DNA of 48,802 nt. Source: Terriglobales bacterium. Lineage in GTDB: Bacteria > Acidobacteriota > Terriglobia > Terriglobales > Acidobacteriaceae. The number at the start of each line of letters is the position of its first letter. Positions within the stretch are counted from its first letter, which is position 1. The notes under the pieces are model-generated. The model did no database searches and was not told the DNA's origin. It was given only the letters and a program-made list of their open reading frames with translations. Shown here in pieces: positions 8,419 to 22,263 of the stretch. The stretch is from assembly GCA_035543055.1 (NCBI GenBank), contig DATKKJ010000135.1:1-48802 (forward strand). The letters run 5' to 3'. The position numbers were made by a program, and so were the translations under genes.

Positions 8419-8559
8419 GTTGGAATACCGCCCGAGAATGCGTTCGAAGCAGGCGCAATCCTCTATTACAAAAAGCTATCACTTCTGCCGCGGGCCCGCT
8501 GTGACGTGGGACGACACTGCACGTGACGCGAGGCACAGTCCGGCGTGCGGACCGAAAGC

Positions 8560-8565
8560 TATAAT
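8560..8565 (+). promoter_or_regulatory. -10 element TATAAT placed for a leaderless start
   Basis: A perfect TATAAT ends 7 bases before the ATG at 8573. With the usual distance from -10 to transcription start, the mRNA would begin at or within a base or two of the ATG. No Shine-Dalgarno sequence and no good -35 are visible. Confidence 0.5.
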
Positions 8566-8572
8566 CCCGCTC

Positions 8573-9514
8573 ATGGGAAGCATGGACAACCTGCAGTACC
8601 GCTGGGATGAGCTTGGCTTCCCTACGCCGGCTTCCCGCTTCACGTTCTCCCACTGCACCCGCGAGCCGCTTTCCTGGACCGAAGAGCTGGAAAAGGCGGC
8701 CATCGACTTGGCAAAGTCGGCGCGCCGACCCATCTGGATCTGCTCCAGCGGCGGCGTCGACAGCGAAACCCTGTGCGAGATCTTTCTTCGCCTCAACCTC
8801 TCGTTCAAGGTACTGACACTCGAATTTGTCGATGGGAAGAACGCCCACGACATCGTCCATGCGAAACAATGGTGCAAGCAACATGGCGTTGCCCAGGAAC
8901 TGTATCCGTTCGATATCTTCGACTTCGTGAAGAACGAGCTCGACCAGTACATCGAGGAGGGATACGTTGCGGGGGAACTTTTCCGCTACCTGATGGTGAA
9001 AGAGGTCGCCGTCGTGGACGAGATGGGCGGCTTCGCAGTGCTGGCCGGTGGTGAGCAGCTCTATCACGTGGACGGCTCCAGGGAAGTCCTCACCGCCGCT
9101 GATCCCTACCTACAAGCGGATATCACCTATACGACACCGCTCGAATGGTGCCGGCGGCACGGCGTTCGGCACGAGCCGTATTTCTACTTCAGCACACCCG
9201 AGATCATGCTGGCCTGGCTGCGCATCCCGCTGGTGGATTTTGTCCTGCACCACCCCGATTACTTCCGCCACCCCACGAACAAGCACGCGTTGAAGAACTC
9301 GGTGATTCGTTACCACTTCCCGCAGCAGCAGTGGCGGAACAAATGCACCGGCTTCGAGCAGGTGCTCAACCTGGATGCCCTGGTGAGAGCAAAGCTGGTC
9401 GAACATTTCGGCGCGCGCGTGCAAAAGTCACGGTTGTACGTCTCAGAGCTTCTTCAGCAGTTGCAGCCAATCGCAGAGCCCGTCCCACGCGCCTTCACAA
9501 ACGCCGCACAGTGA
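8573..9514 (+). CDS. PP-loop ATP pyrophosphatase-like protein of unknown substrate
   Basis: 313 aa from ATG 8573 (8582 is an alternative). The PP-loop SSGGVDS lies at about residues 58-64, in a hydrophobic strand IWICSSGGVDSE, as in N-type ATP pyrophosphatases (asparagine synthetase C-domain, PAPS reductase, QueC, TilS). These adenylate a substrate and release pyrophosphate. Further conserved-looking blocks are VLTLEFVDGKNAHD (second strand), LAGGEQLYHVDG and the C-terminal KNSVIRYHFPQQQWRNKCTGFEQ. No glutaminase domain, zinc finger or RNA-binding domain is seen. Its neighbours do not reveal a pathway. It ends 14 bases from the convergent rhodanese-fold gene. Confidence 0.75.
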   Translation: MGSMDNLQYRWDELGFPTPASRFTFSHCTREPLSWTEELEKAAIDLAKSARRPIWICSSGGVDSETLCEIFLRLNLSFKVLTLEFVDGKNAHDIVHAKQWCKQHGVAQELYPFDIFDFVKNELDQYIEEGYVAGELFRYLMVKEVAVVDEMGGFAVLAGGEQLYHVDGSREVLTAADPYLQADITYTTPLEWCRRHGVRHEPYFYFSTPEIMLAWLRIPLVDFVLHHPDYFRHPTNKHALKNSVIRYHFPQQQWRNKCTGFEQVLNLDALVRAKLVEHFGARVQKSRLYVSELLQQLQPIAEPVPRAFTNAAQ

Positions 9515-9528
9515 TAGCAAAGGCAGAC

Positions 9529-10251
9529 TCATGAGCAGCCGGTGCCGAGCTTCAGCTTCTGCTTCTCCTGCTCCGAGGGAGTTGTCGGCTTCTTCTTGGC
9601 CGGCGGGAGTTCTTTCTTGGTGGCGGGTGTGACTTCTTTCTTGATCGGCGGCGATACGGGGTTGGCAGCCGGCGCCGGCATCCCGGGTGCCCCCGTGGGT
9701 GCGACCGCAGCCGCTTTCCCGGCCATGAAGTACTCCCGCAGCTGGCGCGCCTGCTGATACCCGGAAGAAGAAGGCTTGGCGGAGCGGATGGAGGTCGGGG
9801 TCATGATCTCGTCCCACCAGCCGATGATGCCGTCTTCCAGCGCGTAAGCGCGATATCCCTTCATGGTGAGCAGCAATTGCGTCTTGGCGGCTTCGCCGGC
9901 TCCCAGGCTGTAAACGACGACCTTCTTCTGCCGGTCGAGGCGCTTCAGGTTCTCCGCCTGGAAAAGCGCATTGCGCGGAATGTTGATGGCCGTCGGGATG
10001 TGGTAGTCGTCGAAGTGCCAGGGATCGCGCAGGTCCACCAATTGGTAATCCTGGTGTTTCTCGAGGACCCACTGCGCCAGTTCTCCGGCGGTCACCTGCC
10101 CGGTGTCCTGCGTCATGGTTGCGACCGCGGCCGCGGTCTCCGCCGCCCTTACCGTGCGGCCGATGACCACCGCTGCCACGACTAGTACGGCGACCAGCAC
10201 GATCGTCACCGCGGCAATCCTGTTACCGGTTAACACGACCGAACGCCTCAT
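9529..10251 (-). CDS. Membrane-anchored rhodanese-fold protein lacking the catalytic cysteine
   Basis: 240 aa. An uncleaved N-terminal anchor (about residues 11-31) is followed by a rhodanese domain: QLVDLRDPWHFDDYHIPTAINIP is the conserved CH2A-like region. The active-site loop reads VVVYSLGAGEAAKT, with Ser115 where sulfurtransferases have the persulfide-forming Cys. The C-terminal 60 residues are rich in Pro, Lys, Ala and Thr (cell-envelope linker type) and end in GTGCS. The ATG overlaps the stop of the cytochrome b gene (ATGA), so the two are translationally coupled. It may bind, rather than transfer, a sulfur compound, or act as a structural partner of the reductase complex; this is inference. 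It is the last gene of the operon. Confidence 0.85.
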   Translation of the reverse strand: MRRSVVLTGNRIAAVTIVLVAVLVVAAVVIGRTVRAAETAAAVATMTQDTGQVTAGELAQWVLEKHQDYQLVDLRDPWHFDDYHIPTAINIPRNALFQAENLKRLDRQKKVVVYSLGAGEAAKTQLLLTMKGYRAYALEDGIIGWWDEIMTPTSIRSAKPSSSGYQQARQLREYFMAGKAAAVAPTGAPGMPAPAANPVSPPIKKEVTPATKKELPPAKKKPTTPSEQEKQKLKLGTGCS

Positions 10252-11048
10252 CGCTGTTTCTCCCCTTCTATGTGCGATCCCTGCGAGGCCGGCTTCTCAT
10301 CCGTGCCGGCGGGCAAACCGCGCCAGCGGGACACGTCTCTCCACCACTTGAAATGGTGGCTGTACGCGTACAGCTCGTTCACATTGCCCGTGATCATGGA
10401 GAAGAATGCGGGCTTTTCTTCCGGAAGCACCGCGCCCATGTAGACGTGAATCATCAGCCCGGAAACGACGGCGCCGACGGCCGCGAAGTGGATGGCGGCC
10501 GCCCAGCCGATCAGGGCTGCGTTCCCCAGGTGGAACGTCATGAGCAGCCCGGTGATCATGATGACCGGCACCATCAGGTACACCAACAACGCGAACAGTT
10601 TCTGGCCCGCGTTGTAGATGCCCTGCTGCGGCAACTGTTCTCCGCTCAGCCGGAGGATACCCAAAATGCGGATACGCAGCCATTGCCAGTCGTCGGCGTC
10701 CAGGCTGATCTCGCGGCGCAACACCTCCTTCTGCAGATAGGTGCGGAACCCAAAGGTGCCATAGGCCAGGAACACGACGATCCACGTGATCCCGACCGCA
10801 AGATGGAACTGCAGCATGTTGGCCTTGGAGCCAAAGAAACCCTGGACGATGCGCACGTACCACCACGGCATCACGCGCAAGTCGGAGGTCAGCATCGCCA
10901 GCCCGGTGCCCAGTTCCAGCAGCCACACGAACGCGTTGAACCAGTGGAGCAGCATGATGGCGATGTCGTGCTTCTTGACCTGGCGCTGCGAGAGCGCATC
11001 GGCCTCGGCGGCGCTCAAGGTACGCGGTGCTCGGGCGATCGTTGCCAT
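10248..11048 (-). CDS. FdhI/PhsC-type membrane cytochrome b subunit
   Basis: 266 aa from ATG 11048. Four hydrophobic segments are visible: IAIMLLHWFNAFVWLLELGTG, FHLAVGITWIVVFLAYGTFG, LFALLVYLMVPVIMITGLLM and IHFAAVGAVVSGLMIHVYMG. Histidines inside or at the ends of helices (two near residues 27-35, one in FHLAVG, two in the last helix) fit two b hemes, as in the formate dehydrogenase gamma / thiosulfate reductase PhsC family. This subunit would pass electrons between the quinone pool and the Fe-S subunit. Its start overlaps the stop of the Fe-S gene (TGATG) and its stop overlaps the start of the rhodanese-fold gene (ATGA). Without an NrfD-like eight-helix protein, the complex is closer to PhsABC than to PsrABC. 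Confidence 0.87.
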   Translation of the reverse strand: MATIARAPRTLSAAEADALSQRQVKKHDIAIMLLHWFNAFVWLLELGTGLAMLTSDLRVMPWWYVRIVQGFFGSKANMLQFHLAVGITWIVVFLAYGTFGFRTYLQKEVLRREISLDADDWQWLRIRILGILRLSGEQLPQQGIYNAGQKLFALLVYLMVPVIMITGLLMTFHLGNAALIGWAAAIHFAAVGAVVSGLMIHVYMGAVLPEEKPAFFSMITGNVNELYAYSHHFKWWRDVSRWRGLPAGTDEKPASQGSHIEGEKQR

Positions 11049-11791
11049 CAACTCTTCTCCCCGTGTTTCTCTTCGGGCTCGCCGATCGCGAGCTGGTAGA
11101 AGAATGCGACCGCCTGGCCCAGGAATGTCGCCCCCACCCCGGCGATCACCAGCGGCCGCAGGACGCGCGCCCAAAACTCCCGGGAAGGGACCGGACGCGG
11201 TGGATGGGGCGCGAACGAGGCCAGCACCGGCTCCAGGTCCCGATCCCGGCCGGCGTAGAAGACATTCGGACCGATGGCGACCTCGCGGCTCTCCAACCTC
11301 TTTGCACCTTGCTCGTACACCAGCCGGAAGACGTCGCTGCGGGAATCCTCCAGGTCCCCGAAATACTTGGCGTGGGCGGTGCAAGTGGCGACGCAAGCCG
11401 GTTCCAGCCCGCGCTCCAGGCGGGCGGAGCAGAAATCGCACTTGTCAGCCTGGTTCAGCACAGGGCTGATGTAACGCGCATCGTAGGGGCACGCGTCCAC
11501 GCAGTAGCCGCAGCCGATGCACAACCCTCGGTCGATGTGGACGATGCCGTCCTCCGACTGGCGGGTGGCTCCCGTTGGGCACGCGGCTACGCACCCGGGC
11601 CGGTCGCATTGATTGCACTGCGCAATCCGGAACCCCGAGGAGAGGTTGGGGAACGTGCCCATCACGCCGGTGGGATGGACGCGGGTGCGGGCGAACCCCA
11701 GCGGTACGTCCCACTCCTTATTGCAGGCCGCGGTGCAGGCCTGGCAGCCGACACACTTCGTCAGGTCGATGACCATCGCGTATCGCGCCAT
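11048..11791 (-). CDS. Four-cluster Fe-S electron-transfer subunit (PhsB/PsrB/FdhB type)
   Basis: 247 aa. Sixteen cysteines are arranged in four motifs: 13-16-19-23 (CVGCQACTAAC), 59-62-67-71 (CNQCDRPGCVAACP), 91-94-97-101 (CIGCGYCVDACP) and 118-121-133-137, predicting four [4Fe-4S] clusters. A C-terminal helix (LVIAGVGATFLGQAVAFFYQL) may anchor it to the membrane next to the cytochrome. It lies 4 bases downstream of the molybdoenzyme gene and overlaps the cytochrome b gene by one base. No Tat signal is present, as expected for a subunit carried across with its catalytic partner. Confidence 0.92.
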   Translation of the reverse strand: MARYAMVIDLTKCVGCQACTAACNKEWDVPLGFARTRVHPTGVMGTFPNLSSGFRIAQCNQCDRPGCVAACPTGATRQSEDGIVHIDRGLCIGCGYCVDACPYDARYISPVLNQADKCDFCSARLERGLEPACVATCTAHAKYFGDLEDSRSDVFRLVYEQGAKRLESREVAIGPNVFYAGRDRDLEPVLASFAPHPPRPVPSREFWARVLRPLVIAGVGATFLGQAVAFFYQLAIGEPEEKHGEKS

Positions 11792-11795
11792 CGCC

Positions 11796-14006
11796 CTAGC
11801 CCTCCACCTTCAGGATGCGCACGAAGTTCACCCGCATCCCGGTCGCGCCCATGATCGGGTCCACCTGCACGCGCGTCATGAGGCCGGTGTCGGAAGCGCC
11901 ACGGCGGTAGGCGCGGCGCATGCGCTCGCCTTGCTGGCCGAAGCCGTGCACCATGAATACGCAGTCGCGACGGATGCCCTCCGTGACCCGCAGCGTGATC
12001 GGCAGGCTCTTCACCCCGTCTTGGTTCTCGAGCACGACCCGTTGAGCCTCGCGCAGCCCAAGCGTGCGGGCCGAAGCGGCGTTGATCCAGACCACGTTCT
12101 CCGCTTCGAGCGAGCCTAGAAGCGCGTTGTTCTGAGTGCGGGCGAAGGAGTGTACTGGGGTGCGGCCGTCTAGCAGCCGGAACGTGCCCAACGGCGGATC
12201 GGCGACCGGGATGTAGCGCGGCAATGGATCGAATCCCGCCTGCTTCAGGGTCGTGGAATAGAGTTCGATCTTGCCGCTGGGTGTCGGAAATAGCGGCCCG
12301 TCTTCCGGCAGGCGGTCCTCGATGTACGGGCGGCCTTCGAATGTGACCGCGCCGCGCGCCCGGAGTTGGTTCTCGCTGACGCGCATCGGGGTCATCAGGA
12401 CCTGGAGATGTTGCTCCGGCGTCTTCCAGGGAAAATAGGCTTCCAGGCCGAGGCGCCGCGCCATCTCCCTGACGATCCACCATCCCGGCTTCGACTCATG
12501 CAGAGGCTCGACGACCGGCTGCCGCACCGCGATGAACGGTTTCTTAGCGCTACTGACGATGTGCGGCATGTCGTAGCGCTCCAGGTAGGTAGCTTCCGGG
12601 AGGACGAGGTCGGCGTGATTGACCTGCTCCACCGGCATTACGTCCACGACGGCGAGGAAGTCCAGTTGCTCGATGGCGCGCAGCGTCTTGTGCCGTTCGG
12701 GGATGCTCTCCAGTACATTTTGGCCGTAAACGATCCAAGCCTTGATGGGATACGGCTTCCCCGTGAGCGTGGCCTCGACCAGGCCATTGGTGACACCCTG
12801 GTCCTCGGAAGCGAAAGGGAAGCGAGTGCCGGCGCCGTCGGCCCGGCCCCGCGGCGACTTGGGAAATGGCGGAAGCTCGAACTTTCCGGTCTTCACCGCG
12901 GTCGGGAGAAAGATCCCGCCCTCGCGCCCCCAACTGCCGGTCAGGGCGGTGAGAATGGCCATGGCGCGGGCGCGCTGGGCGTCGTCGCCGTACCAACTCG
13001 TGTGCCGCCCGGGATGAAGCAGGACCGCCGGTTTCGCGTCGGCCATAGCACGCGCCGTTTCCCGGATCTGCTTCGCCGGGAGCTCGGTGATCGATTCCGC
13101 CCACTCCGGCGTGCATCCACCGACGTGAGCCGCCAGTTCAGTGAACCCGGTGGCATGCGCCTGGATGTATGGCTGGTCGTATCCGCCCTCTTGAATGAGC
13201 ACGTTCGTCCACGCCAGCAGCAGCGCGATGTCCGTACCGGGGCGGATGGGAAGCCACCAATCGGCCTTCGCCGCGGCGGTGGAGAAGCGCGGGTCCACCA
13301 CCACCAGCTTCGCTCCGCGGGAGAGCGCCTCGGCGAAGGCAGTGATCTGGGAGGTGAACACATTTTCGCCGAGATGCGATCCAATGAGGATGATGAGCTT
13401 GGCTTCTTCCAGGTCGAGCGGCTCGGGCGAACCAAGATCGCGCCCGAACGTGAGCGCGTAGCCGACGTCGCGCGCGCCGCGGCACTGGGCGAAGGAAGGC
13501 TCCGCCCGGTTGGGAGTGCCGAACGCCTTCATCAGAGTCGCGAAAAACGTGGCCCCAACGCCGTGAGGAAAGAGCGCGACGCTCTCCGGGCCGTACTGCA
13601 CCTTGATGTCGTTCAGACGCCGGGCAAAGACATCCAGCGCCTTGTCCCAGCTTACGCGCTCGAACTTACCTTCGCCGCGCTTGCCCGCCCGCAGCATGGG
13701 GTGCTTCAGCCGGTCAGGATCGTAAAGGAGCTCGGCGCCGGCATTGCCACGTGCGCAGAGGCGTCCGCGGGTGAGGGGATGCTCGGGGTTGCCGGAGATC
13801 CGCACCACCTTGCCATCCGCCACCTCGGCCAGGATCCCACAGCGCCAGAAGCACATCTCGCAATTGGTTGCGATCTGGGTTACGCGCTGCGTACCGCGCC
13901 AGCCTGGTCGCGGTGTTTCGGCCACGGCGGTGCCGACCGCCCCGAGGGCAGCGCCCGCTCCAGCAGTAAGTTTGACGAATTCGCGGCGCGTGACCTTGCC
14001 GGCCAT
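11796..14006 (-). CDS. Tat-exported molybdopterin oxidoreductase, PhsA/PsrA-like (thiosulfate/polysulfide reductase type)
   Basis: 736 aa from ATG 14006; AAAGGA sits 6 bases upstream, while the ATG at 14012 is too close to it. The N-terminus TRREFVKLTAGAGAALGA is a twin-arginine signal. The [4Fe-4S] motif is CEMCFWRC (C-x2-C-x3-C) and a fourth Cys 27 residues later, the spacing of PhsA/PsrA, FdhG and NapA. The segment PSFAQCRGARD supplies a Cys at the usual Mo-ligand position; GRHTSWYGDDAQRARAMAILTALTGSWG and the C-terminal NNALLGSLEAENVVWINAASA (cofactor binding) are typical of the thiosulfate/polysulfide branch. It is followed by matching Fe-S and cytochrome b genes and preceded by a sulfurtransferase, which supports a sulfur substrate. 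The actual substrate and direction are not proven. Confidence 0.88.
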   Translation of the reverse strand: MAGKVTRREFVKLTAGAGAALGAVGTAVAETPRPGWRGTQRVTQIATNCEMCFWRCGILAEVADGKVVRISGNPEHPLTRGRLCARGNAGAELLYDPDRLKHPMLRAGKRGEGKFERVSWDKALDVFARRLNDIKVQYGPESVALFPHGVGATFFATLMKAFGTPNRAEPSFAQCRGARDVGYALTFGRDLGSPEPLDLEEAKLIILIGSHLGENVFTSQITAFAEALSRGAKLVVVDPRFSTAAAKADWWLPIRPGTDIALLLAWTNVLIQEGGYDQPYIQAHATGFTELAAHVGGCTPEWAESITELPAKQIRETARAMADAKPAVLLHPGRHTSWYGDDAQRARAMAILTALTGSWGREGGIFLPTAVKTGKFELPPFPKSPRGRADGAGTRFPFASEDQGVTNGLVEATLTGKPYPIKAWIVYGQNVLESIPERHKTLRAIEQLDFLAVVDVMPVEQVNHADLVLPEATYLERYDMPHIVSSAKKPFIAVRQPVVEPLHESKPGWWIVREMARRLGLEAYFPWKTPEQHLQVLMTPMRVSENQLRARGAVTFEGRPYIEDRLPEDGPLFPTPSGKIELYSTTLKQAGFDPLPRYIPVADPPLGTFRLLDGRTPVHSFARTQNNALLGSLEAENVVWINAASARTLGLREAQRVVLENQDGVKSLPITLRVTEGIRRDCVFMVHGFGQQGERMRRAYRRGASDTGLMTRVQVDPIMGATGMRVNFVRILKVEG

Positions 14007-14074
14007 CGCCATTCCTTTCGCCCCACACGCGCCTGCGGAAAATGCGGGCCCGTGGCCCGGACCCGCGCTCGGTC

Positions 14075-14989
14075 CTAGAGTCCCGATTCCACCGGCGTCG
14101 TACCGGCGTTGCTCCATTCCATGAATGAGCCGTTGTAAAGCTGTGGCTTGAAGCCGGCCAGCTTGAGGGTGAAGTACTCGTGGGTAGCGATGGGGCCGGT
14201 GCGGCAATAGACCACCACCGGATCACCCGGCTTGAGGCCCGCGGCTTCGTACAGCGCGCGGATCTCTTGCAGCGGCTTCAGCGACGGGTTCTCCTTGCTG
14301 ACCACCGTCTGCGTCCAGAACACGTTCTTCGCGCCGGGAATGTGGCCGCCACGCTTGATGCCGCCGCCGGGATTCTTCCCGGAGTATTGGTCGGGCGGGC
14401 GGCCGTCGAGGATGATGATCTTCTTCTCGGCAACAATTTTCTGTATCGCGGCCATGTCCAGCAGCAGTTCCGGATGTTCGGTAACGGTCAGCGTGGCCGG
14501 TTTGACCTGGAGCGCGTCCTTGCTGAGTGGGCGTTTCTCCGCTTTCCACTTTTCCAGCAGGCCATCGAGCACCGCCGCCTTCGAGCCGTGGCCGAGGTAG
14601 TCGAATTCGAAGTAGACCTCGGCCGCCAGCAGCGGAGTGTCGCCGTAGATGATGACGTGCGAGTCGTCGCCTACCCCCAGCTTCTCGAATACCGCCTTCA
14701 GATCAGCGACTGCGGGGACCTGGTTGGGAACCCCGTTGCGGGTGGTTGTGACTTGCGCCCAGTCGACGAAACGGGCGCCGGGTATGTGGCCGGCATCATA
14801 GTTCGCCCGATCGGCGCCCACATGCAGGAGTACAAGGTCGGCATGGCTGAGATGCTCGGAGAGCCAGTCCGTGCTCACGAGCATCTTGTGCATGTCGTGC
14901 GGCGCAGCCTGGCACGGCGCGGCCGCTAACGCAAGGCCCAGCGAGAATACGAGTGCGATAAGGATCGTATGCTTCAAGAAAGCCTCCAT
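14075..14989 (-). CDS. Periplasmic two-domain sulfurtransferase (thiosulfate/3-mercaptopyruvate type, SseA-like)
   Basis: 304 aa with a signal peptide (hydrophobic residues about 8-24, likely cleavage near CQAAP). Two rhodanese domains are seen: an N-terminal inactive one (LVLLHVGADRANYDAGHIPGA) and a C-terminal one with the active-site loop VVVYCRTGPIATHEYF, catalytic Cys262. This class transfers sulfane sulfur from thiosulfate or 3-mercaptopyruvate to an acceptor. The loop CRTGPIA resembles exported SseA-like enzymes. It lies 68 bases upstream of the PhsA-like gene and 20 bases downstream of the chaperone gene, so it is likely co-transcribed and may feed sulfur to, or remove it from, the reductase. 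Confidence 0.9.
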   Translation of the reverse strand: MEAFLKHTILIALVFSLGLALAAAPCQAAPHDMHKMLVSTDWLSEHLSHADLVLLHVGADRANYDAGHIPGARFVDWAQVTTTRNGVPNQVPAVADLKAVFEKLGVGDDSHVIIYGDTPLLAAEVYFEFDYLGHGSKAAVLDGLLEKWKAEKRPLSKDALQVKPATLTVTEHPELLLDMAAIQKIVAEKKIIILDGRPPDQYSGKNPGGGIKRGGHIPGAKNVFWTQTVVSKENPSLKPLQEIRALYEAAGLKPGDPVVVYCRTGPIATHEYFTLKLAGFKPQLYNGSFMEWSNAGTTPVESGL

Positions 14990-15008
14990 TCGGGAGCGCG
15001 GCTACATC

Positions 15009-15665
15009 TCAGCGCGCCGCCTCCGAAAAGCAATGCTTCAAGATGAGAGCGACGGTACGGTAAAAGTTGGTGCGAGCGTGCTCCATCACCCGTTCTCCGA
15101 TGCTTGCTGCGAACGCGCCCAGATGTTCGTCGATCACTTGCGCCTGCAATTCGCGCGCATAGTCCGCCTGCTTGGATTTCCCTTTCTTCGTGCCCTCGAT
15201 CTCCTTGAACACCAAGAACGAGAGGAACTCCAGCTCGACCGCGATGTGATCGGGGGGCAGGCGGAAATCTTCGGTCAGCTTCAGGCCGGCATCGGCGTAT
15301 AAACGCGCAATCTGGAAGGTGGATTCCTGCAGCAGCTTGCCTTCCCGGTACACTGACTCGAAGAGGTAGGCGAGCCGCGGCTTGGACGCAAAGAACATCC
15401 GCGTGTAGTCCCTCTCCATGTCAAGGAGGAGGTCGGCTTTGCCGCCGGGCTGCTTTCCGGCATATTCCTTGTGGCAGGCGGTGATCGTCTTGAGCAGCGA
15501 TGGATGCCCAAGGGCTTCGGCCCACTGCGCCAGCGCATTCAAGAACTCGCCTCCGCGCAGGGCATTCACCAAGTCCTTATCGGGATAGTTGAAGGCCTGG
15601 GCCAACAGCGAGTACAGGCCGGCCTTGGCTTCCAGTTCACTTAGCTCAGTCGCGATCGCTTGCAT
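15009..15665 (-). CDS. TorD/DmsD-family molybdoenzyme chaperone
   Basis: 218 aa, all-helical, the usual length of the family. Conserved blocks are LYSLLAQAFNYPD at the N-terminus, DLLLDMERDYTRMFFA (the Y/F-x-R-x-F region) and PPDHIAVELEFLSFLVFKE, matching the TorD/NarJ-like signature around P-D-H-I. Such proteins bind the Tat signal of a molybdoenzyme and hold it until the cofactor is inserted. With two Tat-dependent molybdoenzymes beside it, it could serve one or both. It is placed between the Fe-S gene and the sulfurtransferase gene in the operon. Confidence 0.88.
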   Translation of the reverse strand: MQAIATELSELEAKAGLYSLLAQAFNYPDKDLVNALRGGEFLNALAQWAEALGHPSLLKTITACHKEYAGKQPGGKADLLLDMERDYTRMFFASKPRLAYLFESVYREGKLLQESTFQIARLYADAGLKLTEDFRLPPDHIAVELEFLSFLVFKEIEGTKKGKSKQADYARELQAQVIDEHLGAFAASIGERVMEHARTNFYRTVALILKHCFSEAAR

Positions 15666-15753
15666 CGTTCACCCTTCCTCTGCGCCTACGAACAGCGGGC
15701 GGGGGATCGGGTCCAGTGGACGGAACGGACCGCCACCGGACCCGTAACGCGGA

Positions 15754-16452
15754 TTACGCGTGCTTTTCCTTGTTCTCGGCCTTTTCCACGGTCGCGCGCC
15801 GTTCGCCGTACTTTCTTAGGCCCATGCAGACGGCCCCGGCGACCAGTGGCAGCGCCGTCATGTCGGTGATCAGTTCCGCCTTGAGCCGTGTCTTGCCGAG
15901 CTTGGGATACCCCAGGACGGCAGGATCTGCCTTGGTGAGGATGATCACGTGGGTGCCACCGTTCTCCTTCAGCCCATAGATCTTCAGCTTCTTGGCGGTG
16001 GCAAGCTCGTTGGCCCGCGCCACCATGGCTTCGTAATCTCCGGACTGAAGAGCGCTCGCGGGGCAGGCGTCCACGCAGGCCGGCTGCTTGCCTTCGCTCA
16101 CGCGATGCGCGCAGAGGTTGCAGGTGGCCACCTTTTTCGTCTCCTCGTCATAGCGGATGGCGTGGAAGGGGCAGGCCTCCTCGACCTCCTTGGCATTGGT
16201 CAGCTTCGCCGGATCCACCAGCACCGCCCCGTAGGACGTCTTGGTGAAAGCCGACGACTTTTGCGCACACTGCGGGTCCTTGCAGTTCATGCACTGCGTG
16301 CGCAGCATCCCCTCATCCTTGATCTGGACCACGTTCCGGAAGATCCCCCGGGCCGCGATTTCCTGATCGCCGAATTCCTGGATGCATCGGTAGGTGCAGG
16401 AATTGCACCCGGTGCAGTGGGTTGTGTCGACTAAGATCGCTTGTTCTTTCAT
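15754..16452 (-). CDS. Fe-S electron-transfer subunit with one cluster lost (three predicted [4Fe-4S])
   Basis: 232 aa, of the FdhB/DmsB/PhsB class. Cysteines: motif I 13-16-19-23; motif II 54-57-62 but no fourth Cys (AQKSS follows); motif III only the last Cys, 94 (EEACPFHAI), with the first three replaced (DPAKLTNAKEV); motif IV 111-114-126-130. In this family motifs II and III share ligands crosswise, so exactly one complete cluster is gone and three remain. The C-terminus has one hydrophobic helix (ALPLVAGAVCMGL), then a charged tail (EKAENKEKHA). It starts 10 bases downstream of the second molybdoenzyme gene and is its likely partner. No separate membrane subunit follows it. Confidence 0.85.
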   Translation of the reverse strand: MKEQAILVDTTHCTGCNSCTYRCIQEFGDQEIAARGIFRNVVQIKDEGMLRTQCMNCKDPQCAQKSSAFTKTSYGAVLVDPAKLTNAKEVEEACPFHAIRYDEETKKVATCNLCAHRVSEGKQPACVDACPASALQSGDYEAMVARANELATAKKLKIYGLKENGGTHVIILTKADPAVLGYPKLGKTRLKAELITDMTALPLVAGAVCMGLRKYGERRATVEKAENKEKHA

Positions 16453-16462
16453 CCCGGCCTCC

Positions 16463-19042
16463 TCACGCCTTCCTGATGCTGACGTACACGTCTTCCACCC
16501 AGCCCATACCCAGAGGATCCTTCTTTTTGCTCATCATCGGATCCTTCTGCGGGATGAGGTCGCCATCGCGGTAGCCGAAATCCTTGGCTACCCGCAGGTT
16601 CTTGGCGCGGTGCCCGATACCGTGGAACGCGAGCATGCAGTCGTCGCGCGTGATGCGTTTGGATAAGTGCACCTTCGCTTTGACCGGCCGCGGCAGTTGC
16701 GTCATGTACTTGGGGTTGCTCTCGACGATGACCTGGTCGCCATCCTTGAGCCCGAGCTTTTTACCAGCCGTTGGGCTGATCCAGACGGTGTCCATGTAAT
16801 TCATAGTCGTGAGGTGCTTCAGGATGGGGTTGTTGATGAAGTTGGGATCGGCGTGCATGTACCAGGGCGCGCGCGTGATCAGGAGCGAGAACTTGTAATT
16901 CTCGTCCGGCTCCTGCCAGCGCGAGTCCCAGGTGGGGAGAGGCGAATGGTCCACCTTCGAGAATTCGTCGATGAATATCCGCACCCGCCCGTTGGGCCGG
17001 CCATACGATTGTTGCCGGATCTGCTTGTAGTTCTCGTACGGCTTGTTGTCGATCCAGAACGCGCCCTTGGCCATGAACTCCTTGCTGTTCTCGGCCGCAC
17101 CGGTCAGCTTCAACGCGGCGTCACCGATACCCATGGGGACCGCTTTCTTGGGATCGCCGCTGCCATCGGTGGTCCAGTACTTCGGTGCCAGTGCCAACCC
17201 GATCTTCTGGGTCACCGTGCCCCAGCCGATCTGGTCGCCCGGCGGCTTCTGCACCGGAGCGCCTCCTACCAGGCAGGCCTGCTTGGGGTAGTAGGTGCGC
17301 ACGTCTAGCTTGCCCTCCTCGAAGTTGTGCGGGGCAGGCAGCACGTAATCGCACCAGTACCCGAGATCGTCCAGGTACAGGTTCCAATCCACCACCATGT
17401 CCTTCTTGGCCAAGCCGGCCTCCAACATCTGCGGCTGGATGGTCGCGAACAGCCCGCGGTGCGGGTTGCCATAGATGACCACCTTCACCGTATTGGTCGT
17501 GTACAGTCCGTAACCGACCATGCCGTAGTGTCCGGGGGCCGAAAAGTCCTTCTGGCGGTAGATGTCGTTGGTGACCGGGAACTCGTGGCGGAAGTCGACC
17601 GACTTGCTGGGCAGTGCCGGATACGGCTCCGCTGGCTTGTAGAGGTCTTCCAGCCACGGCATCTTGACGTCGTGCAGCAGCAGCAGGCCGCCCTCGTGAT
17701 CGATGGCCCCGACCAGGGTGTTGATCACGTTCAGCGAGTGCCGCAGTCGCCAGCTATTAGCGTAGTTGGGGCCGGCAGCATCGCGCTTGTTGGTGGGCAC
17801 CACCGCGTACGGAGCTGCCGCCGCGAAGTCGAGCGCGATCTTGCGGATGGCCGACGCTTTCACGTCCGTGATCGGCGCCGCCCATTCCGGCGTGAACGGC
17901 TTGGTGGTCTCGGCCAGCAGTTGCAGCACCGGCTTGGCTTTGATCTCCTTGCCTGCGACCGTCACCGTGTACGTGCCGCCGTCCAGGGCCGGAGCGTGGC
18001 ACGTGCTCAGCGGCTCCAACTGCTTGTGCTCGGTGCACCAGGCGTAGAAGCCACCGTCATCGGTCTTCAGCGCCTGCCTAGTGTCGAGGTCCACCAGCGC
18101 CGGAGCATCGGAGTACTTGGTCAAGAATTCGGTGTTGTATTTCTTGTTGGAAACGATGGTGTTGATGATGGCCAGCGCCACCGCCAAGTCGGTCCCCGGC
18201 TTGATGGAGTAGTACTGGTCCGCGAAGTTGTCCGAGATCGGTGTCCGGACGGGATTGAACATCACGATCTTGCTGCCGTTCTTCTTGCCCTCGAGCCAGT
18301 GGGGCAGCATGCCCGCCTTGGCTGACTTGGTGAATGAGTCGAAGCCGAACCAGATCTGGTATTTCGCCAGGTCGTAGTCGTAGCCGGGCAGGTGATGCGA
18401 CGGAGTGTAAGTGCTCGAATAAACGTCGTTGGGCGGATTCGTGATGGTCAGGCAGTTGATGTAGTAGTGCGTTCCGAAGCATTCCGTTCGCTGATCGCTG
18501 CGGATCACGCCCATGGATTTGCAGAGCTTGTTGGTGAAGGGATTGCCGGGAGAGGCGATCAGGATCTCTTCCGGCTTGTACTTCCGCATCACGTCGATGA
18601 TCTCGTTGACGGCGTCGGCGGACCTGAGCGTCACCCAGCCTGGGTCCGAATCCGTCCCTTTCCGCGGATTGGTCCGCTTCAGGGCGACCATCAGTCGATC
18701 AGGGTTATAGAGGGAATCGACGAAGCCCATGGCCTTGATGCAGTACTTGCCCTTGGACACGGGGTCTTCTGGCCAGCCTTCGATTGTTATGGCCCGTTCT
18801 AGCCCCGTCTTGGTGTCGGTCCCCACCACGACTTTCACAGCGCAGTTGATCTCGCAGGCGCGGGAACAGACCTGGGGTACCTTCTTGCTGATCTTGAAGG
18901 TGGGTTGCTCCTGCGGGTGCTTCTCAAACTGGCCGACGGCCTCGAGGTTTTGAAAAGGGAAGGCCGCCATGGCAGGCGCGACCCCCGCTATCCCCGCGGC
19001 GCGTATGAAGCCCCTTCGAGATAGCTTGTCAGTTTTTTCCAT
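16463..19042 (-). CDS. Tat-exported molybdopterin oxidoreductase, DmsA-like Fe-S spacing, substrate unknown
   Basis: 859 aa from ATG 19042, with AAGGAG 6-7 bases upstream. The N-terminus LSRRGFIRAAGIAGVAPAMAAF is a Tat signal. The Fe-S motif is CSRACEINC (C-x3-C-x3-C), then a Cys 33 residues on: a DmsA-like first spacing that differs from the second molybdoenzyme of this operon. The Mo-site region reads RTECFGTHYYINCL, with Cys candidates for a Mo ligand. Later blocks GGLLLLHDVKMPWLED and VVIYGNPHRGLFATIQPQM, and the C-terminal TTMNYMDTVWISPTAGKKLGL, fit the cofactor-binding folds. It is paired with a Fe-S protein 10 bases downstream. A dimethyl sulfoxide/tetrathionate/oxyanion-type reductase is possible but not supported further. 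Confidence 0.85.
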   Translation of the reverse strand: MEKTDKLSRRGFIRAAGIAGVAPAMAAFPFQNLEAVGQFEKHPQEQPTFKISKKVPQVCSRACEINCAVKVVVGTDTKTGLERAITIEGWPEDPVSKGKYCIKAMGFVDSLYNPDRLMVALKRTNPRKGTDSDPGWVTLRSADAVNEIIDVMRKYKPEEILIASPGNPFTNKLCKSMGVIRSDQRTECFGTHYYINCLTITNPPNDVYSSTYTPSHHLPGYDYDLAKYQIWFGFDSFTKSAKAGMLPHWLEGKKNGSKIVMFNPVRTPISDNFADQYYSIKPGTDLAVALAIINTIVSNKKYNTEFLTKYSDAPALVDLDTRQALKTDDGGFYAWCTEHKQLEPLSTCHAPALDGGTYTVTVAGKEIKAKPVLQLLAETTKPFTPEWAAPITDVKASAIRKIALDFAAAAPYAVVPTNKRDAAGPNYANSWRLRHSLNVINTLVGAIDHEGGLLLLHDVKMPWLEDLYKPAEPYPALPSKSVDFRHEFPVTNDIYRQKDFSAPGHYGMVGYGLYTTNTVKVVIYGNPHRGLFATIQPQMLEAGLAKKDMVVDWNLYLDDLGYWCDYVLPAPHNFEEGKLDVRTYYPKQACLVGGAPVQKPPGDQIGWGTVTQKIGLALAPKYWTTDGSGDPKKAVPMGIGDAALKLTGAAENSKEFMAKGAFWIDNKPYENYKQIRQQSYGRPNGRVRIFIDEFSKVDHSPLPTWDSRWQEPDENYKFSLLITRAPWYMHADPNFINNPILKHLTTMNYMDTVWISPTAGKKLGLKDGDQVIVESNPKYMTQLPRPVKAKVHLSKRITRDDCMLAFHGIGHRAKNLRVAKDFGYRDGDLIPQKDPMMSKKKDPLGMGWVEDVYVSIRKA

Positions 19043-19116
19043 CTTTGCTCCTTGACCTCGTTGGATTTGGAACCTACTTGAGCCCAGGTTCGCTCGTCGG
19101 TTGATGGTGGTTGCCG

Positions 19117-20127
19117 TTACCCTCCGATAGCTGCCATGGAGAACGGCGCATGCTGGGTCTGTGGAGTGAATAGGTTGTGCCATGCTGGCTTGTGGGTGGC
19201 GATCTGACGCAACGCCCCACGCAGTGCCTCGTCCCCCTGGCGCAGATAAGGCTTCAGATCGACGCCGCCGCGGGCGAACAGGCAGGCTTTCGCCAGGCCC
19301 GAAGCGGTCACACGAAGGCGGTTACAGCAATCACAGAAATGGTTTGAGACGGGGGTAATGATGCCGATCTTTCCAGCGGCCCCCGCGATCCGGAGGTAGC
19401 GCGCCGGGCCATGCGGATCGGCCGAGGTCAGCTCCTCGAGCCGGTACCTCTGTTCCAACTTGCGCAAGATCTCTGCGCCAGAGACCCAAGTGGAATGCCA
19501 GTCCGCTCGTTCCATGGTCGGCATGTACTCAATGAAGCGAACGGTGTAAGCCTGCCGCAGTGTGAGTTCGGCGAAGTCGGAGACTTCGTCCTCGTTGATC
19601 CCCCGCATGACCACGGTGTTGATCTTCACCGGCGGGAAGCCGGCGATTTCAGCGGCGGCAACGCCGTCGAGCACCTCCTGCAGATCTCCCCCGCGGGTGA
19701 TCTGCGCGAAGGTCACGGGGCGGAGAGAATCGAGGCTTACGTTCAGCCGCTCCACGCCCGCTCGGCGCAACTCCTCTGCCATCTGAGCCAGGAGCACGCC
19801 GTTCGTCGTCAGCACAAGCGAACGCATGCCAGGAATTGCGACCAGCCTCTCCAGGAATCCGATCACGCCTCTGCGAACCAGAGGTTCGCCGCCCGTGACC
19901 CGTATCTTGCACAGGCCCAGCGCGACCGCCTGTCGCGCGATGCGCTCCAGCTCTTCGAATCGCAAGATGTCTTCGTGTGGAATCCAGGGGACGCCCTCGG
20001 CGGGCATGCAGTAGCGGCAGCGCAGGTTACAGCGGTCGGTGACGGAGAGCCGGAGGTAGTTGATTAGCCGGCCTTGCAGGTCGGTCAAGCTGCCTGGAGA
20101 CTCGTCACAAGGCGGGAGATCGCTCAT
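19117..20127 (-). CDS. moaA: GTP 3',8-cyclase MoaA (molybdenum cofactor synthesis)
   Basis: 336 aa from ATG 20127 (an ATG at 20157 would add 10 residues). Radical-SAM motif CNLRCRYC (C-x3-C-x2-C) near residue 33, GGEPLVRRGV, and the second [4Fe-4S] motif CDCCNRLRVTASGLAKAC. It ends in the characteristic double glycine (SMAAIGG), which in MoaA is needed for the radical reaction. It catalyses the first step of molybdopterin synthesis from GTP. Lying between the cytochrome and the molybdoenzyme genes, with 75 bases before the next ATG, it is most simply a cofactor-supply gene in the same transcript. No other moa/moe gene is in the window. Confidence 0.95.
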   Translation of the reverse strand: MSDLPPCDESPGSLTDLQGRLINYLRLSVTDRCNLRCRYCMPAEGVPWIPHEDILRFEELERIARQAVALGLCKIRVTGGEPLVRRGVIGFLERLVAIPGMRSLVLTTNGVLLAQMAEELRRAGVERLNVSLDSLRPVTFAQITRGGDLQEVLDGVAAAEIAGFPPVKINTVVMRGINEDEVSDFAELTLRQAYTVRFIEYMPTMERADWHSTWVSGAEILRKLEQRYRLEELTSADPHGPARYLRIAGAAGKIGIITPVSNHFCDCCNRLRVTASGLAKACLFARGGVDLKPYLRQGDEALRGALRQIATHKPAWHNLFTPQTQHAPFSMAAIGG

Positions 20128-20253
20128 GACAACCCAGTCCCAAAAAAGCACTCCCAAAACAGATCAGACTAACCGGGGAACTTTCATGGCGTCTGTGATA
20201 TGGCTCACCCGTTGCTGTGCGTGTCCGAGCGCACTCAGGCGTGTGACGGCAAG

Positions 20254-22263
20254 CTAGCGCGTTACTTCGATCGAGGTCTGCGCCGAGGCCAGGTCGGTTA
20301 CCGGCGGTCGCCGGTGCTTCCCGGAATACACGACGTCCATGAAGAATTGGTTCGCCTTGGCGTAGCGAAAGCGCGCTCTTACCCCCAGCGGCCCACGCAC
20401 CGTTACGGGGACGTGGAAAGCGAAATCGTAGCTAGCCGATTGCTGCGCCAATATGGCCGGACGGAACTTTGGTCCGAGCGGATGCCAGAGGTCAGGCTTC
20501 ATCACCATCTGCCCGGCGCTATTGATGGCCAGCGGCTTGAGGATGTAAGAGCCGGCTTCGATGTGGTTCGCGTCGTCGAGCAAGCCAGAATGGAAGATGG
20601 CGTGGCCGGAGGCATCCCCCACCACAACTTCGATCCACGCGCGCGCGATATTGAGCGGTCCGGTGGGAAAGCCATGCCCGACTTTCCTGTTGGTAAGCCT
20701 GACCTTGAAAGCGAGCTCGCTCGTTGCGCGGCAAGCTTGTGGAGCCTCGATCTGCAACTCGACGATCGGCCCCCGCGGCCACGTGTTGGCGATCTCCGGC
20801 ACCTCCCGCTCGCCTCGCAGCCACTGCTCCACATTGCGGATGTGCGCTCCCGAATCGTGCACCCCGATGGCTGCGGGCATGTACTGATTGCCGGCGGCGA
20901 ATGCATGATTGCGGTGGCGTCGCCCGAGCCGTGTCTTTAGGTCATAGGGGTCCGCCTCATGGACGGCGGTGGTCACAAGGTACATGTGGCACTGCTGGCA
21001 ATATTGCCGCCGCGATGGGTCCGGGTCGGTGTTCCATTTACCGCGCTTCCAGTCGTCGTACTGGGTCTCGACCTGCACCGGGCCCTCACGCTCGTCGAGG
21101 ACGTCAAACTCCTTGTGGCAGGCGGCGCAGGATTCGGGGCGGCGCACGAGTGTCAGGTCATAATCCTGATTGTGCTGGTCGGGATAGGCGCGGAGCAGGA
21201 AATGGTTTACCCAGCGGCCGAAGCCACTGGCGGCGGATTCGTACAGATAGGGCTCCGGCGCACCCAACACGTAGCTGCCGATGCCGCGCTCATCCACCTT
21301 GCGAATGGCGTGGCAGACGACGCAGCTATCGCCCTCCCGGTAGCCGGGCGCGGAGCGGCCTAGTAAGGGGTCCTTGTGGCCGGAGAGCATCGAGACCGGA
21401 TCGTGGCAGGCACCGCACTTTTCCGTTTCGCGGATGCCCTTCACCCCGGTCGTGACGGCCCGGACCTCCTGGAAGAATTCGTCTTCTGCCGACCAGCGAT
21501 GCGCGCTCGACCTCCACTCCTGGTAAATGGCGGCATGACAATCCGAGGTGCCGCAGGAATCGGAATTGGCGAGCACTTCCACCGGAATCGGGCGACCCGT
21601 TTCCGTTTCCACCATGCTGGGCTGAAAATCCGAAGTGCCGATGTGCTGGCCCCAGAACTGTCGGCGTTGCTCACGGGAGAAGTGGGTCGCCAAGAGACCA
21701 CAAAAGGCAAATAGAGCCAGCGTGGGGATTCCGGCCTGAATCCACATCCGCCGCCGCACGAGGACGTAGCTCGGCCGGTCATCTGACGTCGAAGACGGCC
21801 ACAAGTGATAGGCAAGGAACGGCAGCGCCAGAATCCCACTCCAGAGGTGCAGTGAATCCCATACCGAACCGATGAAGCGTCCGAATGCAGCCTGCCAGCC
21901 GACCACCAGTCCTGTCACAACACTGGTAGCAAGCAGCCAGAATCCGATATATGCCGAGATCTTCTTACTTGTGCGGGCCACCTTTCGTGCGCCAAGCCAG
22001 TGGCTCAATTGCCAAAGAGCGAAGATCGGTACGGCAGCCAAGCCTGCGGCGGTGTGGAGCACGATAGCCAACTGGGCAAAGACACTGAACGGGAGTATGG
22101 CTATGGCACAGCCGCTTAGCACGACGCACAACAATCCCCCGCCCGCAACGCCAAACCTAAGAATGCTCTTCTCGGAAAGGAAGGCATGTCGCACGGGTGA
22201 GCTCTCGTAACTGGGCTCGGCCATCGTCTTCTGGTCAGGGACTCCGGACACGTGTAACACCAC
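20254..22263 (-). CDS. Membrane b-type plus pentaheme c-type cytochrome
   Basis: 669 aa if the GTG at 22263 is used; an ATG at 22224 (MAEPSYES) would give 656. The first 200 residues hold five hydrophobic segments with histidines at their ends (His70, His88, His139, His153), as in small di-heme cytochrome b domains. The rest is exported and carries five heme c sites: one unusual C-x4-C-H (Cys237-Cys242-His243) and four C-x2-C-H (CGACH from 283, CVVCH, CAACH, CQQCH). A final beta-rich domain with GHGFPTGPLN follows. The layout fits a quinol-to-periplasm electron conduit for the molybdoenzymes encoded downstream; no published name is recognised. It starts the operon. Confidence 0.85.
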   Translation of the reverse strand: MVLHVSGVPDQKTMAEPSYESSPVRHAFLSEKSILRFGVAGGGLLCVVLSGCAIAILPFSVFAQLAIVLHTAAGLAAVPIFALWQLSHWLGARKVARTSKKISAYIGFWLLATSVVTGLVVGWQAAFGRFIGSVWDSLHLWSGILALPFLAYHLWPSSTSDDRPSYVLVRRRMWIQAGIPTLALFAFCGLLATHFSREQRRQFWGQHIGTSDFQPSMVETETGRPIPVEVLANSDSCGTSDCHAAIYQEWRSSAHRWSAEDEFFQEVRAVTTGVKGIRETEKCGACHDPVSMLSGHKDPLLGRSAPGYREGDSCVVCHAIRKVDERGIGSYVLGAPEPYLYESAASGFGRWVNHFLLRAYPDQHNQDYDLTLVRRPESCAACHKEFDVLDEREGPVQVETQYDDWKRGKWNTDPDPSRRQYCQQCHMYLVTTAVHEADPYDLKTRLGRRHRNHAFAAGNQYMPAAIGVHDSGAHIRNVEQWLRGEREVPEIANTWPRGPIVELQIEAPQACRATSELAFKVRLTNRKVGHGFPTGPLNIARAWIEVVVGDASGHAIFHSGLLDDANHIEAGSYILKPLAINSAGQMVMKPDLWHPLGPKFRPAILAQQSASYDFAFHVPVTVRGPLGVRARFRYAKANQFFMDVVYSGKHRRPPVTDLASAQTSIEVTR

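Follow-up and report, generated by a model that had tools for sequence, protein, structure and literature searches.

The closest described systems to the gene cluster considered here are built around molybdoenzymes of the polysulfide and thiosulfate reductase type, PsrABC/PhsABC (Thermus PsrABC, 2vpw, and Salmonella-type PhsABC). In Bacillus selenitireducens, the selenite reductase operon srrABCDEF encodes a Psr-clade reductase with its Fe-S subunit and anchor, a chaperone and two rhodanese-domain proteins (PMC12481199), and a Psr beside a rhodanese is also known from Desulfurivibrio (PMC12142623). In the MOLY cluster (MolyABC), genes for a Tat-exported molybdoenzyme A, an Fe-S protein B and TorD are adjacent and lack a membrane anchor, and such anchorless A-B-TorD trios have been proposed as a marker of S0 disproportionation (PMC12998232). 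A Psr-type operon with rhodaneses is therefore an already described layout, and the second part of the present cluster, a molybdoenzyme-Fe-S-TorD trio, resembles the MOLY cluster.

The window, meaning the whole stretch of 48,802 nucleotides that was analyzed from a Terriglobales bacterium, contains ten co-directed ORFs on the minus strand (9529-22263) that no single standard operon matches. Comparison of gene neighborhoods resolved them into two separable modules that are fused here, MoA-FeS1-TorD (module 1) and rhd1-PsrABC-rhd2 (module 2, with MoB, FeS2 and cytb as its PsrABC part), in the company of moaA and a multiheme cytochrome, MHC. The first-pass annotation had described a leftward ten-gene cluster with two unlike Tat-exported molybdoenzymes, each with its own Fe-S subunit, a PhsABC/PsrABC-like part, moaA and a pentaheme membrane cytochrome, and all of this is borne out: a Tat RR motif is present in each molybdoenzyme (SRRGF, TRREF), the two differ in Fe-S motif spacing, and synteny assigns FeS1 to MoA and FeS2 to MoB. 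With the likeliest starts, the gaps from MHC to rhd2 are 96, 74, 10, 88, 19, 62, and 4 bases (the first being 126 if moaA begins at its ATG), FeS2 and cytb overlap by 1 base and cytb and rhd2 by 4 bases, and terminator-like sites between the ten genes show no excess over chance (9 found, 11.0 expected). In a single genome from a different genus, G121, the whole set of ten is found again in unchanged order, with protein identities of 59-82% and dN/dS values of 0.12-0.25, and the intact order together with these ratios shows that all ten are under purifying selection. From their spacing and kept order, the ten genes are probably transcribed as a single unit.

The cluster, which was present in 2 genomes in two overlapping samples of about 400 genomes, is a discrete island of about 8.55-22.2 kb. 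DNA and protein similarity to G121 spans 8554-22221, with blastn blocks covering 8554-21668 and tblastn extending the border to the MHC N-terminus. This includes a convergent PP-loop gene on the plus strand (8573-9514; Asn_synthase-like, with SGGVDS and a weak match to PF00733), an 80% identical copy of which adjoins the cluster in G121 and which is absent from six other relatives; judged by these neighborhoods, it travels with the cluster. We infer that the island can be transferred between genomes, and a search of a plasmid collection found nothing closely related to MoA or MHC.

MoB (11796-14012) is a Tat-exported molybdoenzyme of the PsrA/PhsA type that matches Thermus PsrA (2vpw) at 736 bits and falls in the known PsrA clade, grouping with the Thermus enzyme (98/94) and joined by E. 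coli PhsA at 88/94. It contains PF00384, PF04879, and PF01568, a C-x2-C-x3-C Fe-S motif and a predicted Mo ligand, C177, that is invariant in 13 relatives. It differs from PhsA in scoring 530.6 bits against the NCBIfam thiosulfate reductase equivalog NF012032, under the curated cut-off of 694. FeS2 (11048-11791), a PsrB/PhsB-type subunit with all 16 cluster cysteines and one C-terminal transmembrane helix, and cytb (10248-11048), a b-type anchor of the cytochrome b561/FdnI/PhsC type (PF01292), are paired with MoB because the three genes occur by themselves in G073 and as rhd1-MoB-FeS2-cytb in G098, where ACR3/SBF- and ArsP-type permease genes precede them. The complex thus shares with PsrABC/PhsABC the clade of its catalytic subunit, the Cys ligand and Tat signal, a four-cluster Fe-S subunit and a membrane anchor, which is a cytochrome b as in PhsC, but it is flanked by two rhodaneses and shares its operon with a second molybdoenzyme module. 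The majority of the MoB relatives read lie alongside NrfD, YeeE/YedE, and rhodanese genes, which points to sulfur. Selenocysteine was considered for MoB relatives with an in-frame TGA, but their reading frames need no such codon to be complete, and the TGA is most likely a terminal stop.

The two rhodaneses are unlike. The exported two-domain rhodanese/MST rhd1 (14075-14989; two PF00581 stretches) has its loop cysteine (CRTGPIA); in G098 (locus L085), too, MoB is preceded by a gene of this kind. The membrane-tethered rhd2 (9529-10251) consists of a rhodanese domain without the loop cysteine (SLGAGEA), a Lys/Pro-rich linker and a conserved C-terminal tail, KLKLGxGCS; C-terminal Cys tails are also found on rhodanese or YedE-rhodanese genes adjoining MoB relatives. 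With these two proteins, every item of the Srr-type part list (Psr-type ABC, chaperone, two rhodanese-domain proteins) is present in the island; the layout, which had appeared unfamiliar at first reading, is partly known in its Psr portion (PMC12481199). The likeness to Srr is one of operon make-up, and the described operon differs in having no second molybdoenzyme, MoaA or multiheme cytochrome, while TorD in the island goes by synteny with MoA and not with MoB.

MoA (16463-19042) was defined by profiles, alignments, a tree and a structure model. PF04879 and PF00384 match above their cut-offs and PF01568 weakly, under its cut-off; the Fe-S motif is C59-x3-C63-x3-C67, and Cys188, which aligns with the Mo ligand of PsrA in both the profile alignment and a 44-row alignment and is invariant in 11 sequences, is the predicted Mo ligand. 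Pairwise alignments had instead suggested Thr201 in its place, a candidate rejected because the profile and 44-row alignments put the invariant C188 there. The spacing is like that of the type II DMSO reductase family (NarG, PcrA, EbdA), with which MoA also shares a homologous insert after residue 310, but MoA has Cys rather than Asp at the aligned ligand position and type II enzymes form a separate 100/100 clade without it. The model built from the 44-row alignment (pLDDT 85, pTM 0.88) places MoA closest among solved folds to ArrA (Z 34.3), followed by PsrA (Z 33.4); fold matches of an earlier, poor model from 11 close sequences (pLDDT 55) were left out. ArrAB is likewise a periplasmic AB heterodimer with a Cys ligand, but MoA is only about 21% identical to ArrA, has another Fe-S spacing and its own partner, and reaches 79 bits against the curated ArrA model, where the cut-off is 1600 (35 against 1750 for TtrA). 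In the tree, MoA belongs to a clade of its own (100/100) whose sister is another anchorless trio (99/98). The family is uncharacterised and forms a tight clade across three lineages, recognizable by C-x3-C-x3-C with a Cys ligand, a TNPPN insert, FeS1 and TorD.

The idea that a second molybdoenzyme sits in this operon as an odd orphan does not hold, since MoA has its own Fe-S subunit, FeS1 (15754-16452; one of two Fer4_11 proteins in the cluster), and its own TorD-like chaperone (15009-15665; PF02613), and this trio also occurs by itself, with no anchor, at 58-70% identity in Deltaproteobacteria and Nitrospirae MAGs. FeS1 and TorD follow MoA there with no PsrABC nearby, which is the basis for pairing FeS1 with MoA. 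These stand-alone trios have the MOLY arrangement, one (L057) having NrfD upstream; the resemblance is one of gene make-up, and the island differs in that PsrABC and a b/c cytochrome accompany its trio, in a genome without dsrA. A further anchorless trio, in the order A-TorD-B (L125/L126), is an equal candidate for the MOLY cluster.

Both island copies of FeS1 retain 12 of 16 cluster cysteines and lack exactly C4 of motif II and C1-C3 of motif III, whereas in nine other members of the trio family either the full 16 are present or a single one is replaced. From what we know of NarH and DmsB, we take the missing four to be the ligands of an FS4-type cluster. FS4 is the cluster that normally faces the membrane anchor, and its loss may mean just weaker electron transfer. 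Beside the trio in two Deltaproteobacterial genomes (L053, L056) lies a 15- or 11-heme cytochrome with b561-type transmembrane helices, one family common to both that is a different protein from MHC with the same design. MHC itself (20254-22263, likely start 22224) has four CxxCH and one Cx4CH c-heme sites and an N-terminal membrane domain whose H56, H74, H125, and H139 (655-residue form) are kept in both copies. The absence of FS4 and the cytochromes at L053 and L056 suggest that MHC, not cytb, probably serves MoA, and the single cytochrome b noted at first for two enzymes, although the only one, would then have MHC beside it as a second membrane link. This partnership rests on co-location, because six of the 11 trio loci have no membrane cytochrome or NrfD nearby, and the cases are the window and G121, counted as one, and the two Deltaproteobacterial genomes. 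The membrane partner of the MoA clade is changeable: no gene nearby, NrfD, or b/multiheme-c cytochromes. The remaining gene, moaA (19117-20157, likely ATG start at 20127), encodes a GTP 3',8-cyclase (TIGR02666, 364 bits, NCBIfam cut-off 284) and is a second copy in the genome, the other being on contig C74.

With moderate confidence, we propose that the island is a transferable respiratory unit whose two periplasmic molybdoenzyme modules are encoded in a common operon and have the quinone pool in common, while their membrane connections are separate. MoB-FeS2-cytb would draw electrons from menaquinol and reduce a sulfane-sulfur compound, most likely polysulfide or thiosulfate, with sulfur ferried to or from the complex by rhd1 and, by way of its C-terminal cysteine, by the tethered rhd2. 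MoA-FeS1, matured by TorD, would be a soluble, anchorless heterodimer whose electrons leave or enter at FS3, since the outermost cluster is gone, and pass to or from the five c-hemes and the b-hemes of MHC, while the extra MoaA would boost molybdenum cofactor supply as both enzymes are made. Of the possible uses, a two-step reduction chain would be the likeliest, in which MoA produces or consumes a related oxyanion or sulfur intermediate that is also handled by MoB. Overall, the island has the appearance of equipment dedicated to the respiration of sulfur (or selenium) compounds in a rare bacterium.

Other readings of the same parts differ mainly in substrate and direction. If MoB were an Srr-type selenite reductase, MoA could reduce a higher oxyanion of selenium (or tellurium or arsenic) and the rhodaneses could bind Se0 or handle Se, for which the srrABCDEF part list (PMC12481199), the ArrA-like fold of MoA and the permease genes in G098 can be cited; as TorD belongs by synteny to MoA and the neighbors of most MoB relatives speak for sulfur, we regard this as possible but unlikely. 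Coupled oxidation and reduction is another reading that we doubt, in which MoA would oxidize a sulfur intermediate, the electrons would reach quinone by way of MHC, and PsrABC would spend them on reducing the same or another intermediate. Two membrane routes in one operon, possibly opposite in direction, and the proposed marker status of anchorless trios (PMC12998232) are consistent with such a disproportionation; against it, the MolyA orthogroup (OG1, Novak et al.) covers far more than the MoA clade, and dsrA was not found in the genome, so that a Dsr-based route is absent.

The bolder version, in which MoA represents an undescribed MopB family of anchorless AB enzymes passing electrons from FS3 directly to multiheme b/c cytochromes, paired with a rhodanese-fed Psr for a disproportionation of sulfur (or selenium) that does not depend on Dsr, or for respiration in two steps, we consider improbable. 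Since the ten genes include a single cytochrome b gene, it could also be that MoA-FeS1 and MoB-FeS2 both dock on cytb as one supercomplex and that MHC is unrelated, the more so as MHC homologs elsewhere (34-38% identity) have no molybdoenzyme genes alongside. Yet MoB-FeS2-cytb is complete by itself in G073, FeS1 lacks the anchor-facing cluster and an island-type cytochrome b was never found at trio loci elsewhere, which makes this very improbable.

An odd ten-gene operon is thus resolved into two modules with their subunits paired, so that each can be tested apart. The analysis defines a tight, uncharacterised molybdoenzyme clade with clear signatures in three lineages, which has an exchangeable membrane partner and, in the island pair, has cleanly lost one Fe-S cluster. 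Sets of A, B and TorD without an anchor rank among the foremost candidate systems for sulfur disproportionation; with such a trio fused to PsrABC, an island of this kind would offer a compact setting in which to find the substrate.

The region 9529-22263 is filled by ten minus-strand genes encoding, from upstream to downstream, a membrane b/c-type cytochrome (MHC), MoaA, a Tat-exported molybdoenzyme (MoA), an Fe-S subunit (FeS1), TorD, a rhodanese (rhd1), a second Tat-exported molybdoenzyme (MoB), its own Fe-S subunit (FeS2), a b-type membrane anchor (cytb) and a second rhodanese (rhd2), each assignment being confirmed by family scans. Intergenic gaps are 4-96 bases, with one junction of 126 if moaA begins at its ATG, while FeS2/cytb and cytb/rhd2 overlap as TGATG and ATGA, and terminator-like sites in the cluster show no excess over chance. 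The same ten genes in identical order are found in a genome of a different genus of the same family (G121, locus L025), with proteins 59-82% identical. The ten close-packed or overlapping leftward genes described in the first-pass annotation are thus borne out by the ORFs, the family scans and this shared order. Since dN/dS between the two copies is 0.12-0.25 across all ten genes, all of them, including the rhodanese that lacks a loop cysteine (rhd2), are under purifying selection. The host genome has a second moaA copy elsewhere and no dsrA.

The window resembles G121 from position 8554 up to the MHC start, and the similarity ends at both borders. The shared island takes in a convergent PP-loop gene (8573-9514, + strand), 80% identical in G121 and not found in six other relatives, including the genus mates of the host (G265) and of G121 (G073). 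Its product has an SGGVDS motif and a weak Asn_synthase match, co-occurs with the island and perhaps has a role in sulfur or nucleotide transfer. Of the 396 genomes in a phylum sample just two carry MoA, and the same two are the carriers in an overlapping family sample of 398 genomes. Nearby tRNA genes differ in side and kind between the window and G121, and so no integration site is claimed.

The island comprises two modules that occur separately in other genomes, by which FeS1 and TorD pair with MoA, and FeS2, cytb and rhd1 with MoB. Among named genome contigs there are three MoA relatives (65-70% identity), two of them in Deltaproteobacteria MAGs and the third in a Nitrospirae MAG. Downstream of each come FeS1 and TorD, and no other gene of the window operon. 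Further MoA members occur in 6/297 and 2/148 genomes of those phyla, and the A-B-TorD order is retained at further loci. In the phylum to which the window belongs, relatives of MoB are frequent (32/199, E<1e-120), with MoB-FeS2-cytb standing alone in G073 and rhd1-MoB-FeS2-cytb in another genome, G098. Directly upstream of the latter (L085:4848-7369) lie genes for two permeases, one of ACR3/SBF type with a fused low-molecular-weight phosphatase domain and the other of ArsP type.

The MoB module is of a known kind. The best solved match of MoB is Thermus PsrA (736 bits), with which it groups in the tree (98/94), and it scores 530.6 bits with the PhsA model, under the cut-off of 694. Its anchor is of the cytochrome b561/FdnI type, like PhsC, while many MoB relatives carry NrfD and a YeeE/YedE gene in its place. 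Accompanied by two rhodaneses and a chaperone, the Psr module is reminiscent of srrABCDEF, the selenite reductase operon of Bacillus selenitireducens (PMC12481199), which has been noted for Acidobacteriota (PMC8528874). In both island copies rhd2 ends in KLKLGxGCS, and the rhodanese or YedE-rhodanese proteins adjoining five MoB (PsrA-like) relatives (ORF ends in L087-L090 and L093) carry tails that end in GC or GGC(S) and are in most cases rich in Lys, namely KKKGGGCSA, KKKAGGCSS, RKGGGC, KKGGGC and KKKLEGC. From these sequences we infer that the tail cysteine could be a mobile persulfide carrier, a subject on which our literature search found no paper. The MoB relative in L092 likewise ends in EEEEGGC.

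MoA, by contrast with the type II enzymes, which form a separate 100/100 clade, has C188 in the ligand column of the alignment, and it shares two type II traits, the C-x3-C-x3-C motif and an insert aligning with PcrA. In the tree (LG+C20, 43 rows) MoA forms a 100/100 clade on a long stem. The family counts eleven proteins, which share 58-82% identity with the window copy, and a single-protein query of the phyla searched found none beyond these at E 1e-60. The sister group (99/98) includes another anchorless trio, ordered A-TorD-B (L125, L126), and the related L008/L026 sets, which neighbor a ten-heme cytochrome and a 658-residue protein, possibly a porin, with no Pfam match. The arrangement at L026:2114-8757, where a molybdoenzyme, an Fe-S subunit and TorD without an anchor adjoin the cytochrome and the possible outer-membrane porin, suggests an extracellular DmsEFAB-like system. 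A MoA structure model from 44 sequences (pLDDT 85, pTM 0.88) is closest in fold to ArrA (Z 34.3, 2.8 Å, 693 residues), then PsrA (Z 33.4). By the 40-50% identity rule of Wells et al. 2023 (PMC10100899), MoA counts as a distinct MopB family; the paper mentions novel Cys-coordinating lineages and, in the part consulted, does not describe the MoA clade. The host also has a type II DMSO-reductase-family enzyme, above the NCBIfam cut-off (TIGR03479), with its Fe-S subunit (L135:6483-10506, contig C48).

In its gene make-up the MoA trio resembles MolyA-MolyB-MolyC, a candidate S0 disproportionation marker present in 90% of the S0 disproportionators studied, whose MolyA orthogroup is described as pan-bacterial and far wider than the MoA clade (PMC12998232). 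Small HTH genes, putatively ModE-like from the look of their sequences, lie near anchorless trios at L052:8292-8657, L055:12201-12554 and L124:674-1117, and one trio locus is flanked by ORFs (L051:3879-4922 and 12517-15433) that, at a guess from their N-termini, are uroporphyrinogen-decarboxylase-like and glycyl-radical-activase-like.

The membrane partner of the island's anchorless trio is probably MHC. In two Deltaproteobacterial genomes the trio is followed by a fused multiheme c/b561-type membrane cytochrome, with 15 hemes at L053:3573-6119 and 11 at L056:13263-15398 (62% identical to each other), with ResB/CcsA-like genes beyond. MHC is likewise a membrane b plus multiheme c protein, with no convincing relation to these two (22% over 212 residues, E 5e-4). 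That two unlike b/c cytochromes adjoin the same trio supports MHC as the likely partner of MoA, despite six trio loci with no such gene nearby; at L057 NrfD takes the place of the b/c cytochrome. In Fe-S proteins of this kind, as established with NarH and DmsB, the fourth cysteine of motif II and the first three of motif III bind FS4, the cluster closest to the membrane heme. Exactly these four of the 16 cluster cysteines are gone from both island FeS1 copies, and one of the four is missing from L059 FeS1, while all 16 are kept in the other eight FeS1 proteins, FeS2, DmsB, PhsB, FdnH and the L125 subunit.

The island is real, conserved and rare, joining a known Psr/Srr-like module to an uncharacterized anchorless molybdoenzyme trio and its probable heme partner. 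What is new here is the combination of modules, together with the new clade to which MoA belongs.
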